Shown piece by piece: positions 16,097 through 50,633 of a stretch of DNA of 64,000 nt. The DNA is taken from the NCBI RefSeq assembly GCF_900129315.1, contig NZ_FQUS01000008.1, positions 62,001 to 126,000 of the forward strand, read 5' to 3'. The translations under genes and the position numbers were made by a program. Position 1 is the stretch's first letter; every line of letters starts with the position of its first letter. Under the pieces are notes generated by a model that saw only the letters and a program-made list of their open reading frames with translations, was not told the DNA's origin and did no database searches. This DNA is from Fodinibius roseus (GTDB lineage: Bacteria; Bacteroidota; Rhodothermia; Balneolales; Balneolaceae).

Positions 16097-16113
16097 GTAC
16101 AGAAATCTTTGTA

Positions 16114-16253
16114 GAGGCCTTTGCAAAAGCGTTGCTTTGGCCAATGGCTGTACGTTCCCGATTTCAACATCCTCATCTATCGTTTATACACTGCGGTTTT
16201 GAAATCGCTCAGGGATTGGTATTGAACAAAACCCTGGTTTTTTCAAAGCCCTC
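16114..16253 (+). repeat. Family-1 dispersed element, copy A
   Basis: This is a 140-bp element with imperfect terminal inverted repeats: GAGGCCTTTGCAAAAGC at the left and GGTTTTTTCAAAGCCCTC at the right. A central inverted repeat pairs CGATTTCAA with TTGAAATCG. It closely resembles copy B base for base over its whole length and has no ORF. It starts 17 bases after the ftsH stop codon. Five other copies are at 22365, 26403, 43358, 54021 and 59453. Confidence 0.85.
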
Positions 16254-16369
16254 TTATATTTATTTGAGACGGTAAAACTCCTTTCTTTGACGACAGTGCA
16301 GGCCTGTTAACATTAAGGTTATATGGGAATAACATTTTGGTAATGATTGCATAATATTCGAGCAATGTG

Positions 16370-22349: not shown

Positions 22350-22364
22350 GCCGCATTTCTTAAA

Positions 22365-22504
22365 GAGGTCTTTGCAAAACCGTCCTTTTGGCCAATCTCT
22401 GTATTTTTGCGGTTTCAACATCTTCACCTGTAGTCTATACACTACGGTTTTGAAATCGCCCAGAGGTTGCTGTTGAACAAAAACCCCGGTTTTTCAAACG
22501 CCTC
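22365..22504 (+). repeat. Family-1 dispersed element, copy B
   Basis: This 140-bp copy has the same length and orientation as copy A. Ends are GAGGTCTTTGCAAAACCG and CCGGTTTTTCAAACGCCTC. The central stem pairs GCGGTTTCAA with TTGAAATCGC, and an inner hairpin pairs GTAGT with ACTAC. It lies in the convergent gap between folE2 and kgd, 15 bases after the folE2 stop codon. Confidence 0.85.
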
Positions 22505-22579
22505 TCACAGTAAATTCCATGTAAAAGGGTTGCCGAACTTTAAAAATTGGCCACTCTTTTTTAATATATTTTGGTTTTT

Positions 22580-26402: not shown

Positions 26403-26542
26403 GATAGCCTTGCAAAAACCGTGATTATGGCCAATCTCTGTATTTTCGCGTATTCAACATCCTTCCATATGCTTTATTTGGAAAGGTATTGAATACACCC
26501 GGGGGTGATGTTGATCAAAATTCCTGGTTTTTCAAAGCCATC
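26403..26542 (+). repeat. Family-1 dispersed element, copy C
   Basis: This 140-bp copy has ends GATAGCCTTGCAAAAACC and GGTTTTTCAAAGCCATC. Its central stem is GTATTCAA/TTGAATAC, which differs from copies A and B by paired (compensatory) changes, and an inner stem pairs CCTTCC with GGAAAGG. It lies between the divergent kgd and pepF genes, 62 bases before pepF, and so is the only copy in a promoter region rather than behind a gene. Confidence 0.82.
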
Positions 26543-31270: not shown

Positions 31271-32125
31271 GTGGCAAGAAGCTCAGGAATTTCTACTCGA
31301 GAATCAGAATCACTCGATCGCTATCTACAGGAGATCGGCAAAGAAAAACTCATTACCCCGGAAGATGAGGTGCGTCTTGCCAAGGAGATCCAGAAAGGTA
31401 GCCAAAAAGCGCTTGAAGACCTAACGAAAGCCAACCTCCGGTTTGTAGTCTCGGTGGCCAAACAGTACCAGAACCAGGGATTATCGCTCGGGGATCTTAT
31501 CAATGAAGGAAACCTGGGGCTCATCAAGGCTGCCAAGCGTTTTGACGAGACCCGGGGGTTCAAGTTTATCTCCTATGCGGTATGGTGGATTCGTCAGTCA
31601 ATCCTGCAGGCACTGGCTGAACAAAGCCGTATCGTGCGATTGCCCCTGAACCGGGTCGGCGCACTGAATAAGATAGGCAAAGAGCTTTCAAAGCTGGAAC
31701 AGGAATACGAGCGCGTGCCTTCGGCTGCCGAGCTGGCCGAAAGCCTGGATATGACGGTTTCGGAAGTAGCGGATACGCTCAAGATTTCCGGCCGGCATCT
31801 TTCCGTGGACGCTCCTTTTGCCCAGGGCGAAGATAACCGCCTGCTGGATGTGTTGGAAAATGAGGAAACCCCCGATCCGGATAACGACCTGATGGGAGAA
31901 TCGCTGAAGGTGGAGATCGAGCGGGCGCTTTCCAAGCTGACCGATCGCGAGGCGGAAGTTATCCGGCTTTATTTCGGAATTGGCCGGGAGCATTCACTGA
32001 CGCTCGAAGAGATCGGCGAGCGATTTGATCTGACCCGCGAGCGCGTGCGCCAGATTAAGGAAAAAGCACTTCGCAAGTTGCGTCACCATAACCGGAGTGC
32101 TGCGCTGAGAGCTTATCTGGGTTAG
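31271..32125 (+). CDS. rpoD: Primary RNA polymerase sigma factor RpoD/SigA
   Basis: This 284-residue group-1 sigma factor has the compact form seen in Bacteroidota-like lineages, without region 1.1. Region 1.2 begins [20 protein letters not shown]. Region 2 has [20 protein letters not shown] and the -10 reader [17 protein letters not shown]. Region 3 begins with [17 protein letters not shown]. Region 4 has the helix-turn-helix [20 protein letters not shown]. The start is a GTG at 31271; an in-frame stop (TAA at 31262) excludes an upstream start. A family-2 element abuts the TAG stop codon, and the true terminator lies beyond it. Confidence 0.97.
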
Positions 32126-32352
32126 TCCGGATTTCTCACAAATATATCACTGAATATATTGCAACCTTTTGCAAAGTAATAAGTTGGGTTCATATTTAAT
32201 CCTTTTAAAAAATAACAGGGTGTTTTTCCGGCGAAATTTATTCTTCAGCTGTGTTAAAGATAATATGGAGCGCTCATTGTACCCGGGTACATTTCCGCGA
32301 CCATTTTACTTTTGCCTTGCTGGCGAAAAAATTTCTTGGTGAGACAACCGGA
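32126..32352 (+). mobile_element. Family-2 MITE-like element, copy 1, abutting the rpoD stop codon
   Basis: This 227-bp element has ends TCCGGATTTCTCACAA and TTGGTGAGACAACCGGA (imperfect inverted repeats). TTAG is directly repeated on both sides (32122-32125 and 32353-32356), and the left one contains the rpoD TAG stop. Inside, CAGC/GCTGG, ATGG/CCAT and the apex TGTACCCGGGTACA form a nested stem. The reverse complement of 48596-48818 aligns with it along the whole length. No ORF. Confidence 0.8.
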
Positions 32353-32381
32353 TTAGTGGTGTTACAAAATATCCGTTGATA

Positions 32382-32416
32382 AAAAGCCCCGAGCGATCAT
32401 CGGGGCTTTTTTATTT
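32382..32416 (+). terminator. Rho-independent terminator of rpoD
   Basis: A perfect 11-bp stem AAAAGCCCCGA/TCGGGGCTTTT with a 7-base loop is followed by TTTATTTT. It lies 257 bases after the rpoD stop, so the family-2 element would be transcribed as part of the rpoD 3' untranslated region. The remaining gap to 32577 holds only a twice-repeated CTGATAAGCATA (near 32480 and 32519). Confidence 0.88.
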
Positions 32417-48432: not shown

Positions 48433-48595
48433 TGCCGACGCATCTCCCGGATTTCCGGTAAAAAGTAAGGGCTAAGGATCAAATACCAATTAGCCATTAA
48501 CCAAATTAATCCCTGCCACGAAGATGGGGGCGTCCGAAGCCTTTATCCGTCAGCTGCCAACTTGCTCACAGCCTCCCTCAACAAAGCGAGTCTAA
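48433..48595. other. Intergenic region after the ABC exporter
   Basis: No gene or clear terminator is seen in these 163 bases. They end at the family-2 element. Confidence 0.35.
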
Positions 48596-48818
48596 CCTGG
48601 ATTTCTCACCAAGAAATATTTTCCTCAGCAAGGCGAAGGACGAATGGTGGCGGAAACGTATCTGGATACGTTGAGCAAACCATTTAAGCTTCAACGCAGC
48701 TGAGGGAGAAGTTTCGTAGAAAAAAACCTGTTATTTTTCAAGGACTTAATATTGCTTTAACTCATTATCCAAGAACGGGGTACGATATATTTAACAAAAT
48801 ACTTGTGAGAAATCCAGG
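48596..48818 (-). mobile_element. Family-2 MITE-like element, copy 2, abutting the SLC13 stop codon
   Basis: This 223-bp copy lies in the opposite orientation to the one at 32126. It has a perfect 14-bp terminal inverted repeat (CCTGGATTTCTCAC / GTGAGAAATCCAGG). CTA is present directly on both sides (48592-48594 and 48819-48821, i.e. TAG on the minus strand), the latter being the stop codon of the SLC13 gene. Inside are nested stems (CTCAGC/GCTGAG, AATGGT/ACCATT) capped by ACGTATCCAGATACGT. No ORF. Confidence 0.82.
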
Positions 48819-50633
48819 CTATAGCGGCCATATAAAGGGGATCAGGATGATTACGATCGACCACAGAACCAATTGCAGCGGAAAACCCACCTTGAAAAAG
48901 TCGGTAAAACGGTAGTTACCGGGACCGTATACCATCAGGTTTGTCTGGTAACCGATGGGCGTCAACAGGGACATCGATGCTACCAGGGTAATGGCTATGA
49001 GCAGGCCGCGGGCTTCCACACCTTGTGTTTCCGCAACCGATAAAGCGATCGGAAACATCAGTGCGACCGCACCGTTATTCGTAATGACCTCCGTCATAAT
49101 CGCAGTCACTATAACCACGCCGGCCAGCACGGCCCGGGGACCATAGGCGCTGGTCAGCTCCACCATCCAGCGGCCGATGATTTCGGCTGCGCCACTGACT
49201 TCCATGGCCCTGCCCAAACCTATAGCGGCTCCGATCACAATCAGTACCGTCCAGTCTACTGATTTACGGGCTTCCCCCGCTTCAACAACATTGAACGCCA
49301 GCAACACCGCAACGCCTAAAATGCCCGCCAGCGCTATGTGAAGGGTACCGAGCGTCACCAGCGTTATAATGCCGATTAACACGGCAACGGAAACATAGAG
49401 ATCTTTTCCGCCGGGACGGTGTTCTTTGGCTTCCTTTGTGGCCCCGGGGGCTTCCCCGCCGGCTTCACTGGTCAGGAAAAAGTCCTCGGTATCCTCATAC
49501 GCGCCCCTGAAGGCACGACCGGTGTCAAGGAGTAAAAGATCACCGGCATGGAGTACGAATTCGCCCAGAGGCTGGTCAATACGCTTACCTTTTCTGCGGA
49601 CACCGGTAACCGCTGCTCCGAACCGTTCGAGGAGCTTTGCCTCTTCCAGGGTGGATCCTACCAGCCGGGATCCCTCTTTGATGACCACCTGGTGAAGTTC
49701 CCGGTCCATTTTTTCTTCCCGTTTAATGTTTCTCGGGGGCTGAAGGGCAAGCCGGAGGCCGGGAAAATCGTCAAGGTCGGGAGCTTTTGCCGCTATGCCT
49801 CCTTCCGCAGCATAGAAAAGATGATCGCCGGCGCGGAGTTGCTCATCTTCCGGGACCGGAGCTATCTCACGGTCGTTGCGGTTAATCCGTGAAAGGTAAA
49901 AGCCGGGGAAACTCCCCAGGCCGGCTTCCTCTATGGTTTTCCCGATGACGGCTGCGCCATCCGTAATTTCGAGCTCCACCAGCAGCTCCCGTATTCGTTC
50001 CTCTTCATACCGTATATCACGGCGGGCGGGCGTCAGGAGGGGAGAGACAAAAATGAGATAAATAAGTCCCGCAACAGCACAGGGAACCCCCACCCAGGCG
50101 AGCTCAAAGAAAGAAAGTCCCTCAAACCCATGGCTCAGCAGGAGCCCGTGCGTAATCAGGTTGGTACTGGTCCCGATCAGGGTACAGAGTCCCCCGAGGA
50201 TAGCCGCATAGGAAAGCGGTATCAGCAGTTTCGATACCAGAATATTATTTTTCTGACCCCAGCTTCGGATAGCAGGAATGCCCATAGCGACCACAGGCGT
50301 GTTATTCAGAAAAGCCGAATAGGCAGATACACTGGGACACAATCGCAAAAGAATCTGTTGTATGCTCCGGGTTTCCTTGCCCAGGATAAAATCGCTCGCC
50401 CGGTCCAGCGCCCCGCTTTCCCTCAGTGCCGCTGCCACAACATATAAACTCCCCAGGGCTACCAGGGTGGTATTGCCAAACCCTTCAACCGCCTGGTCCA
50501 GGCTAATGACGCCGCTCACCGTCACGAGAGCCAGAGCGGTCAGCAGTACGGCATCGGGACTCCACAGGTCAATGGCCAGCCCTACAAAAGCAAGAAACAG
50601 TACTCCTAAAATCAGTAATTGATCAAATCCCAT
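48819..50633 (-). CDS. SLC13-family permease with TrkA-C domains
   Basis: This 604-residue inner-membrane transporter has hydrophobic segments at both ends and two soluble RCK/TrkA-C-type domains in the middle (about 205-395), seen as VELEITDGAAVIGKTIEEAG and HQVVIKEGSRLVGSTLEEA. The membrane part includes LNNTPVVAMGIPAI and TNNGAVALMFPIALS, the paired Asn-Asn-Thr/Gly motifs of the DASS/CitT superfamily that bind Na+ and substrate. The family carries dicarboxylates or sulfate; the substrate here is unknown. A family-2 element begins at its stop codon. Confidence 0.92.
   Translation of the reverse strand: MGFDQLLILGVLFLAFVGLAIDLWSPDAVLLTALALVTVSGVISLDQAVEGFGNTTLVALGSLYVVAAALRESGALDRASDFILGKETRSIQQILLRLCPSVSAYSAFLNNTPVVAMGIPAIRSWGQKNNILVSKLLIPLSYAAILGGLCTLIGTSTNLITHGLLLSHGFEGLSFFELAWVGVPCAVAGLIYLIFVSPLLTPARRDIRYEEERIRELLVELEITDGAAVIGKTIEEAGLGSFPGFYLSRINRNDREIAPVPEDEQLRAGDHLFYAAEGGIAAKAPDLDDFPGLRLALQPPRNIKREEKMDRELHQVVIKEGSRLVGSTLEEAKLLERFGAAVTGVRRKGKRIDQPLGEFVLHAGDLLLLDTGRAFRGAYEDTEDFFLTSEAGGEAPGATKEAKEHRPGGKDLYVSVAVLIGIITLVTLGTLHIALAGILGVAVLLAFNVVEAGEARKSVDWTVLIVIGAAIGLGRAMEVSGAAEIIGRWMVELTSAYGPRAVLAGVVIVTAIMTEVITNNGAVALMFPIALSVAETQGVEARGLLIAITLVASMSLLTPIGYQTNLMVYGPGNYRFTDFFKVGFPLQLVLWSIVIILIPFIWPL

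Follow-up and report, generated by a model that had tools for sequence, protein, structure and literature searches.

Small mobile repeats with structured transcripts are a known kind of bacterial element, as the excerpts of two reports on them make clear (PMC2229807, PMC10969869). In those excerpts, the Nemis/Correia, ERIC, and RUP repeats are small and non-coding, have terminal repeats, duplicate their target, and give rise to stable stem-loop transcripts; their termini carry 5′-TA-3′, and RUP is linked to IS630-Spn1 (PMC2229807, PMC10969869). MITEPye1 of Paracoccus yeei, according to the excerpted part of its report, has IS-like ends, lies between genes, and forms a long stem-loop at the RNA level; it is attributed to IS1182 and is present in one to three chromosomal copies (PMC11578231). 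Descriptions of bacterial MITEs usually deal with one genome at a time and predict the fold from a single sequence. Among insertion sequences, the IS1380 family is probably akin to the eukaryotic piggyBac elements, the ends of which begin with CCC. The target of piggyBac is TTAA, with a 4-bp duplication (PMC7351741, excerpt).

A short repeat found in Fodinibius, a genus within the Balneolales (phylum Balneolota), shares the general features of the Nemis/Correia, ERIC, and RUP repeats, with a stem-loop transcript that is predicted. Relative to those repeats as they appear in the excerpts cited, its ends are IS1380-like, its target is a different one, its fold is confined to the left half, and it carries compensatory changes across a whole order together with invariant internal-loop bases. 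It resembles MITEPye1 in its IS-like ends, intergenic location, and long RNA-level stem-loop, but differs from it in affiliation and copy number. With piggyBac it shares TTAA and the 4-bp duplication; TTAA is strict there, whereas the element described here uses YTAR and further variants. A search of open-licence PMC papers found no description of this element family, of a Balneolaceae or Fodinibius MITE, or of a Balneolales intergenic repeat or RNA motif, and no match for MITEs with compensatory RNA structure; in the accessible portions of the same literature, no paper linking a MITE to IS1380 was found.

The window, a stretch of 64,000 nucleotides of Fodinibius roseus, holds two copies of the element, copy A and copy B. 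The original prediction placed copy B at 48596–48818 and described perfect 14-bp inverted ends, CTA on both sides, and a position directly against the stop codon of a permease gene, and direct reading of the sequence bears out each of these points. The left terminal inverted repeat, CCTGGATTTCTCAC, occupies 48596–48609 and the right one, GTGAGAAATCCAGG, occupies 48805–48818 (both plus strand). The left target copy is CTAA (48592–48595, plus strand; its site class follows from the target tallies given below) and the right target copy is CTAT (48819–48822, plus strand); three of the four bases agree, with one mismatch in the 4-bp duplication and CTA common to both sides. The conserved stem-loop core lies at 48613–48715 on the plus strand, as delimited by a covariance model match, covariation, and the fold of the single copy; the model match itself spans 48596–48714 at 119 bits (G000:C13:110596-110714). 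The core is followed by an A+T-rich right half (48716–48804, plus strand), which is weakly conserved in alignment A4 (see below). The adjoining gene (48819–50633, minus strand) is an intact SLC13/CitMHS-type permease gene (Pfam CitMHS, 276 bits) whose closest named relative is in Fodinibius sediminis (best segment: 604 residues, 83% identical), and its own TAG stop (48821–48819, minus strand) immediately adjoins copy B.

Copy A (32126–32352; locus L109) has its stem-loop on the minus strand (model match 32234–32352, 104 bits; G000:C13:94234-94352) and is flanked by a perfect duplication, with TTAG on the plus strand at both 32122–32125 and 32353–32356. The last three bases of the left target copy (32123–32125) are the TAG stop of a sigma-70 family gene (31271–32125, plus strand; Pfam Sigma70 regions 1.2, 2, 3, and 4), and this stop is the insertion site of the copy. 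A terminator-like hairpin with a T-run, which belongs to the sigma gene, follows at 32385–32416 (plus strand), and copy A now stands between it and the stop. A similar hairpin lies shortly 3′ of the sigma stop in 11 congeners, the sequences of which were compared by eye.

The genome to which the window belongs (G000; 5.08 Mb in 64 contigs) contains 26 BLAST matches to a window copy (E ≤ 0.001), many of them partial, and 37 matches (E ≤ 0.1) to R1, a covariance model of the left 119 positions that was built from 25 sequences. BLAST matches are also present in 14 of 58 genomes of relatives, and the R1 core is present in 39 of 244 genomes of the class (E ≤ 0.001), namely 38 of the same order and one outside it with a weak match (G222). 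The genome richest in the element is that of a one-contig relative, G043, which contains 89 R1 matches (83 once six antisense overlaps are left out) and 223 end-like sites at one mismatch or fewer, compared with a single site for the reversed pattern. For the analysis of ends and targets in this genome, the 83 copies were reduced to 80 by the removal of three outside the sequence cover, and to 74 by the removal of six with no recognised end. The element is about 226 bp long, with terminal inverted repeats of 14–15 bp of the type CCCGGATTATTCAC, and its copies share their start and finish throughout the order. In the combined set, 106 of 122 rows passed the criteria for both ends and flanks and represent 105 distinct copies (L130 was entered twice); the other 16 rows were dropped for a right-end score below 12 or a flank that was cut off. 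Plasmid and phage collections gave no match when one copy was used as the query for each collection (E ≤ 0.01).

Derivative forms also occur. In the window's own genome, 489 sites lie within three mismatches of CCSGGATTTCTCACC, compared with 135 for the reversed pattern, a surplus that indicates numerous ends which stand alone or have decayed, in addition to those of the recognised copies. In G043, short deletion derivatives of 74, 99, and 146 bp retain both ends (e.g., L236, L238, and L240); some of these have no stem-loop core, which suggests either that movement does not strictly require the core or that the deletions took place in copies already inserted. Positions 1501–1526 of L025 form a minimal derivative in which the two ends are nearly joined, with TTAA on either side. 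Copies also differ in whether they carry a 28-bp hairpin module (with GGGAATCGCTTCGCTCGG), always at the same position of the element, just after the stem AAATTTC; its presence accounts for the 254-bp forms. The module occurs within elements in 20 distinct contexts in the analysed loci (read by eye), including L060, L062, L065, L072, L076, L223, and L227, and in none in the window. A composite element was considered for G043, where several copies lie about 2.6 kb apart, and was rejected on finding that the intervening stretches are unrelated ordinary genes.

The target of the element is a 4-bp YTAR-like site, the commonest form of which is TTAA, not TAG. The original prediction of a target choice for (T)TAG therefore holds as regards the existence of a real choice but not as regards the sequence chosen. 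A perfect 4-bp target duplication flanks 64 of the 105 distinct copies, whereas 10,000 re-pairings of the flanks (106 rows) average 16.2 and never exceed 28. The 64 duplications are TTAA (27), CTAA (12), TTAG (8), CTAG (2), and other sequences (15), and YTAR is present on at least one side in 79 of the 105 copies. The duplication is perfect for 51 of the 74 copies in G043 (TTAA, 20; CTAA, 15; TTAG, 6; CTAG, 1; other, 9), and 42 of these 51 are YTAR. Empty sites were found for both window copies: the sigma gene is free of the element in 11 of 11 congeners, with a best end-like match of 12 of 14 anywhere in those loci, and four permease orthologues are free of it in the 120 bases past the stop.

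The ends of the element connect it with the IS1380 family. Locus L243, in the relative G024, is a full-length IS of 1702 bp, the ends of which (CCTGCATTTCTCACAA) are identical to each other at 16 of 16 positions; it is flanked by CTAG on both sides and contains an intact gene for a 485-aa protein that matches NCBIfam NF033539 (IS1380) at 349 bits (cut-off 180). The 14-bp end of this IS, CCTGCATTTCTCAC, is also the end of element copies such as L148, differs from the left repeat of copy B at one position, and agrees with element ends in 13 to 14 of its 14 positions; in addition, the YTAR-like 4-bp duplication is common to both. A similar IS at L242 (G090) has ends matching at 13 of 16 positions, flanks of ctag and ttag, and a gene that is interrupted by stops, and L244, L245, L246, L249, L251, and L252 contain one or two like ends beside whole or partial IS1380 genes. 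The element and the L243 IS are alike only in their ends: the element has no transposase gene, is 226 bp rather than about 1700 bp in length, and has an interior with no visible likeness to the IS of L243 or of L242.

The IS1380 transposase domain (PF13701) is present in 21 of 128 genomes of the order, and it occurs in 13 of 38 element-positive genomes compared with 8 of 90 element-negative genomes (Fisher p = 0.001), a difference for which mobile-element load is a confounder. Among element-positive genomes with PF13701, matching ends were seen in G079, G085, G089, and G090. A matching transposase, for which the original prediction had proposed a search, was thus found in relatives, but PF13701 was not found in the window's own genome. 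In G043, the full-length IS1380 copies examined carry other ends (CCTMAATCCGTGA), as does a second IS group, which encodes a 394-aa protein and whose ends have TGTCCAAAACG; both were rejected as partners, and no partner with matching ends was found in that genome. In G024, the host of the best-matching IS, there is no R1 match to the element. Judged by its sequence, the repeat is very probably a non-autonomous element (MITE) with IS1380-type ends that is moved in trans.

Two other accounts of how copies reach their sites have to be set beside this one. A palindrome of the REP/REPIN type, mobilised by a RAYT (Y1 transposase), would share the high copy number, the intergenic location, and the strongly palindromic core of the element, but a search for Y1_Tnp (PF01797) that was positive in 5 of 14 control genomes gave no match in the window's own genome, and target duplication combined with long terminal inverted repeats fits a DDE transposase; with no Y1 transposase found in the genome, a REP/RAYT origin was rejected as extremely improbable. 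The second account, which follows the original prediction, is that the element seeks stop codons, through either a targeting protein or an end that itself supplies a stop. Both window copies do touch stop codons (the permease TAG for copy B and the sigma-70 TAG for copy A). In the combined set, a stop lies inside the target in 14 of 105 copies, somewhat above the 59 of 780 (7.6%) intergenic YTAR sites in the flanks that served as the control (p = 0.027), and in G043 in 12 of 74 copies, compared with 44 of 519 (p = 0.021); G043 copies occur in both sets, and the two tests are therefore not independent. The excess is less than two-fold, with a null derived from simple ORF calls (at least 80 codons), and it loses significance when only the window's own genome is considered (3 of the 28 copies whose two ends are recognised, p = 0.36), so that the pattern does not extend to a general rule. 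Tabulation of flanks and stops across copies leaves 91 of 105 with no stop in the target, largely the outcome that the original prediction had named as contradicting it; in G043, the figure is 62 of 74. A mild excess remains.

Provision of the stop by the element is contradicted by the orthologues. The sigma gene ends in RAYLG plus the stop, at the same codon, in all 11 element-free congeners, and three of the four permease orthologues end at the same codon as the permease gene, with that of L083 ending one codon later; the four stops are TAG, TGA, TAA, and TAA. By this comparison, the stops are the genes' own and predate the element. The last three bases of YTAR are TAA or TAG, so that a gene's stop can serve as the target and is kept through the duplication, which provides a simple rule for elements lying exactly at stops. 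Survival of harmless insertions would account for the mild excess. We regard the stop-codon association with good confidence, as part of the whole explanation favoured below, as a by-product of the target sequence and of this survival; a stop-seeking element is very improbable, with TTAA rather than TAG as the commonest target and the stop at copy A predating the insertion.

The left half of the element, about 105 nt, has retained a single long stem-loop, with many compensatory changes in its pairs. Alignment A1, made with MAFFT from 25 sequences without use of structure, has 152 pair cells in which both sides have changed, compared with 46.7 in shuffled alignments. In alignment A4 (33 sequences that are less than about 88% alike, with the ends included), there are 227 such two-sided changes (176 in the core and 51 in the ends), compared with 72.5 after shuffling, and none of 500 shuffles is as high; 92.6% of cells are paired, compared with 31.6 to 45.5% when the partners are slid. 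RNAalifold recovers the same rod from A4 unaided. The structure was initially derived from L061 alone, and relatedness among the sequences is lost in the shuffle control; the case for the fold therefore rests on the size of the effect and on the RNAalifold result. Two internal loops of the fold, GCAAGGC with AACGCAGC and GCGGA with TGAGC, hardly vary. Folded singly, copy B has a predicted energy of −45 kcal/mol (z −5.1), a value matched by none of 200 shuffles; the fold of copy A is weaker, at −35.3 kcal/mol (z −2.6), and is matched by 2 of 200 shuffles; and three copies from relatives have z values of −6.4 to −10.6. Rfam gave no match at the gathering score in eight sources and, at E ≤ 5 in four sources, two weak matches far below gathering. 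One of these two, to mir-31_2 over an element copy (23 bits, compared with a gathering score of 97), was taken as chance.

In a DNA cruciform, G-T and A-C would be equally tolerable, which makes the wobble pairs informative as to the strand under selection. In the core of A4, G-U cells outnumber A-C cells by 46 to 10 (p about 1e-6), whereas in the element's own ends, which provide an internal control, the counts are 16 and 11 (p = 0.44); both p values assume independent cells, which those of related copies are not. The pairs chosen by RNAalifold give 95 G-U and 9 A-C, a count in which the choice of pairs itself favours G-U, and other counts show a weaker asymmetry (30 vs 14; 66 vs 16 in relatives; 70 vs 39 in the decayed own-genome copies). 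These counts suggest that selection acts on the plus strand, which runs from the CC(C/T)GG end into the stem, and RNA is the simplest form in which it would do so. Because this preference of wobble pairs for one strand is limited to the core, the stem-loop would act as RNA, and we infer an RNA function for it; selection of the fold as RNA rather than as DNA is likely.

The fold might instead be a property of DNA, such as a cruciform or a single-stranded hairpin at the replication fork that is needed by a transposase or a host factor. The near-palindromic core is able to fold on either strand, selection appears to bear mainly on spreading lineages (see below), and the stem-loop strand in G043 prefers one replication orientation (27 vs 47, p = 0.027, an uncorrected value from one of several tests, with the origin and terminus guessed from the GC skew of the analysed stretches). 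However, a cruciform treats the two strands alike, yet the excess of G-U over A-C is confined to the core and absent from the ends, and the direction of the replication bias is opposite to that reasoned for a fold in the exposed lagging-strand template. Because single-stranded DNA also tolerates G-T better than A-C, a strand-specific fold of single-stranded DNA stays compatible with the counts; overall, a DNA-level fold is improbable. If the selected molecule is RNA, it could be one that serves the host through mRNA 3′-end protection, attenuation, or processing and is mobile by chance. Nemis/Correia with RNase III and ERIC with RNase E act in this way (PMC2229807, excerpt), the copies of the present element lie between genes, and copy A lies between the sigma gene and its terminator. 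The copies in the window's own genome are nevertheless decayed, with 910 of 1088 pair cells (84%) standard, compared with 2331 of 2481 (94%) in relatives, and single copies look dispensable. Neighbouring genes show no preference for the sense direction of the stem-loop: co-directional gene pairs are sense in 22 cases and antisense in 42, and those in G043 are sense in 17 and antisense in 20, so that the antisense bias is not repeated. A host-serving RNA is accordingly regarded as unlikely.

Substitutions within G043 bear on the level at which the fold is kept. Among 33 copies of 226 bp (one of 34 was skipped as too divergent), there are 395 substitutions over 91 sites in the right half, 84 over 82 in the stems, 41 over 23 in the loops, and 16 over 30 in the ends. 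Private changes per site and copy amount to 0.018 in the right half and 0.009 in the stems, a difference of about two-fold (the rates were divided by 34, with 33 copies used). The changed pair cells (n = 72) consist of 21 Watson-Crick, 19 G-U, and 32 broken pairs. We infer that selection acts mainly along the lineages that spread. On balance, the fold seems to be needed for spread or for tolerable insertion rather than by the host at each site.

As a whole, the repeat is best explained, with good confidence, as an IS1380-type MITE that carries a structured RNA. An IS1380-family transposase would recognise the ends in trans, cut out or copy the element, and insert it at YTAR sites. Surviving copies would lie mostly between genes, and occasionally the site would be a gene's own stop, restored by the duplication. 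The stem-loop would act as RNA in whichever transcript crosses the element, and it would most likely be selected along element lineages, by easing either host tolerance or the protein recognition required for spread; service to the host at each site is held to be less likely. A doubtful extension of this explanation is that the element is selfish and order-wide, with a propagation that depends on its own RNA and internal loops that are recognised by the transposase or a host protein. If true, this would make it a cut-and-paste transposon with an RNA partner; RNA would then have a new function in DDE transposition, and the stem-loop would represent a new class of structured RNA. With one family spread across an order, it is possible to count covariation and to use wobble pairs to tell which strand is selected, and whether MITE hairpins are selected as RNA or are by-products of palindromic DNA becomes a testable question.

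The window also contains a second interspersed repeat family, with three copies at 16113–16265, 22364–22516, and 26415–26506, and a similar repeat lies beside L005.
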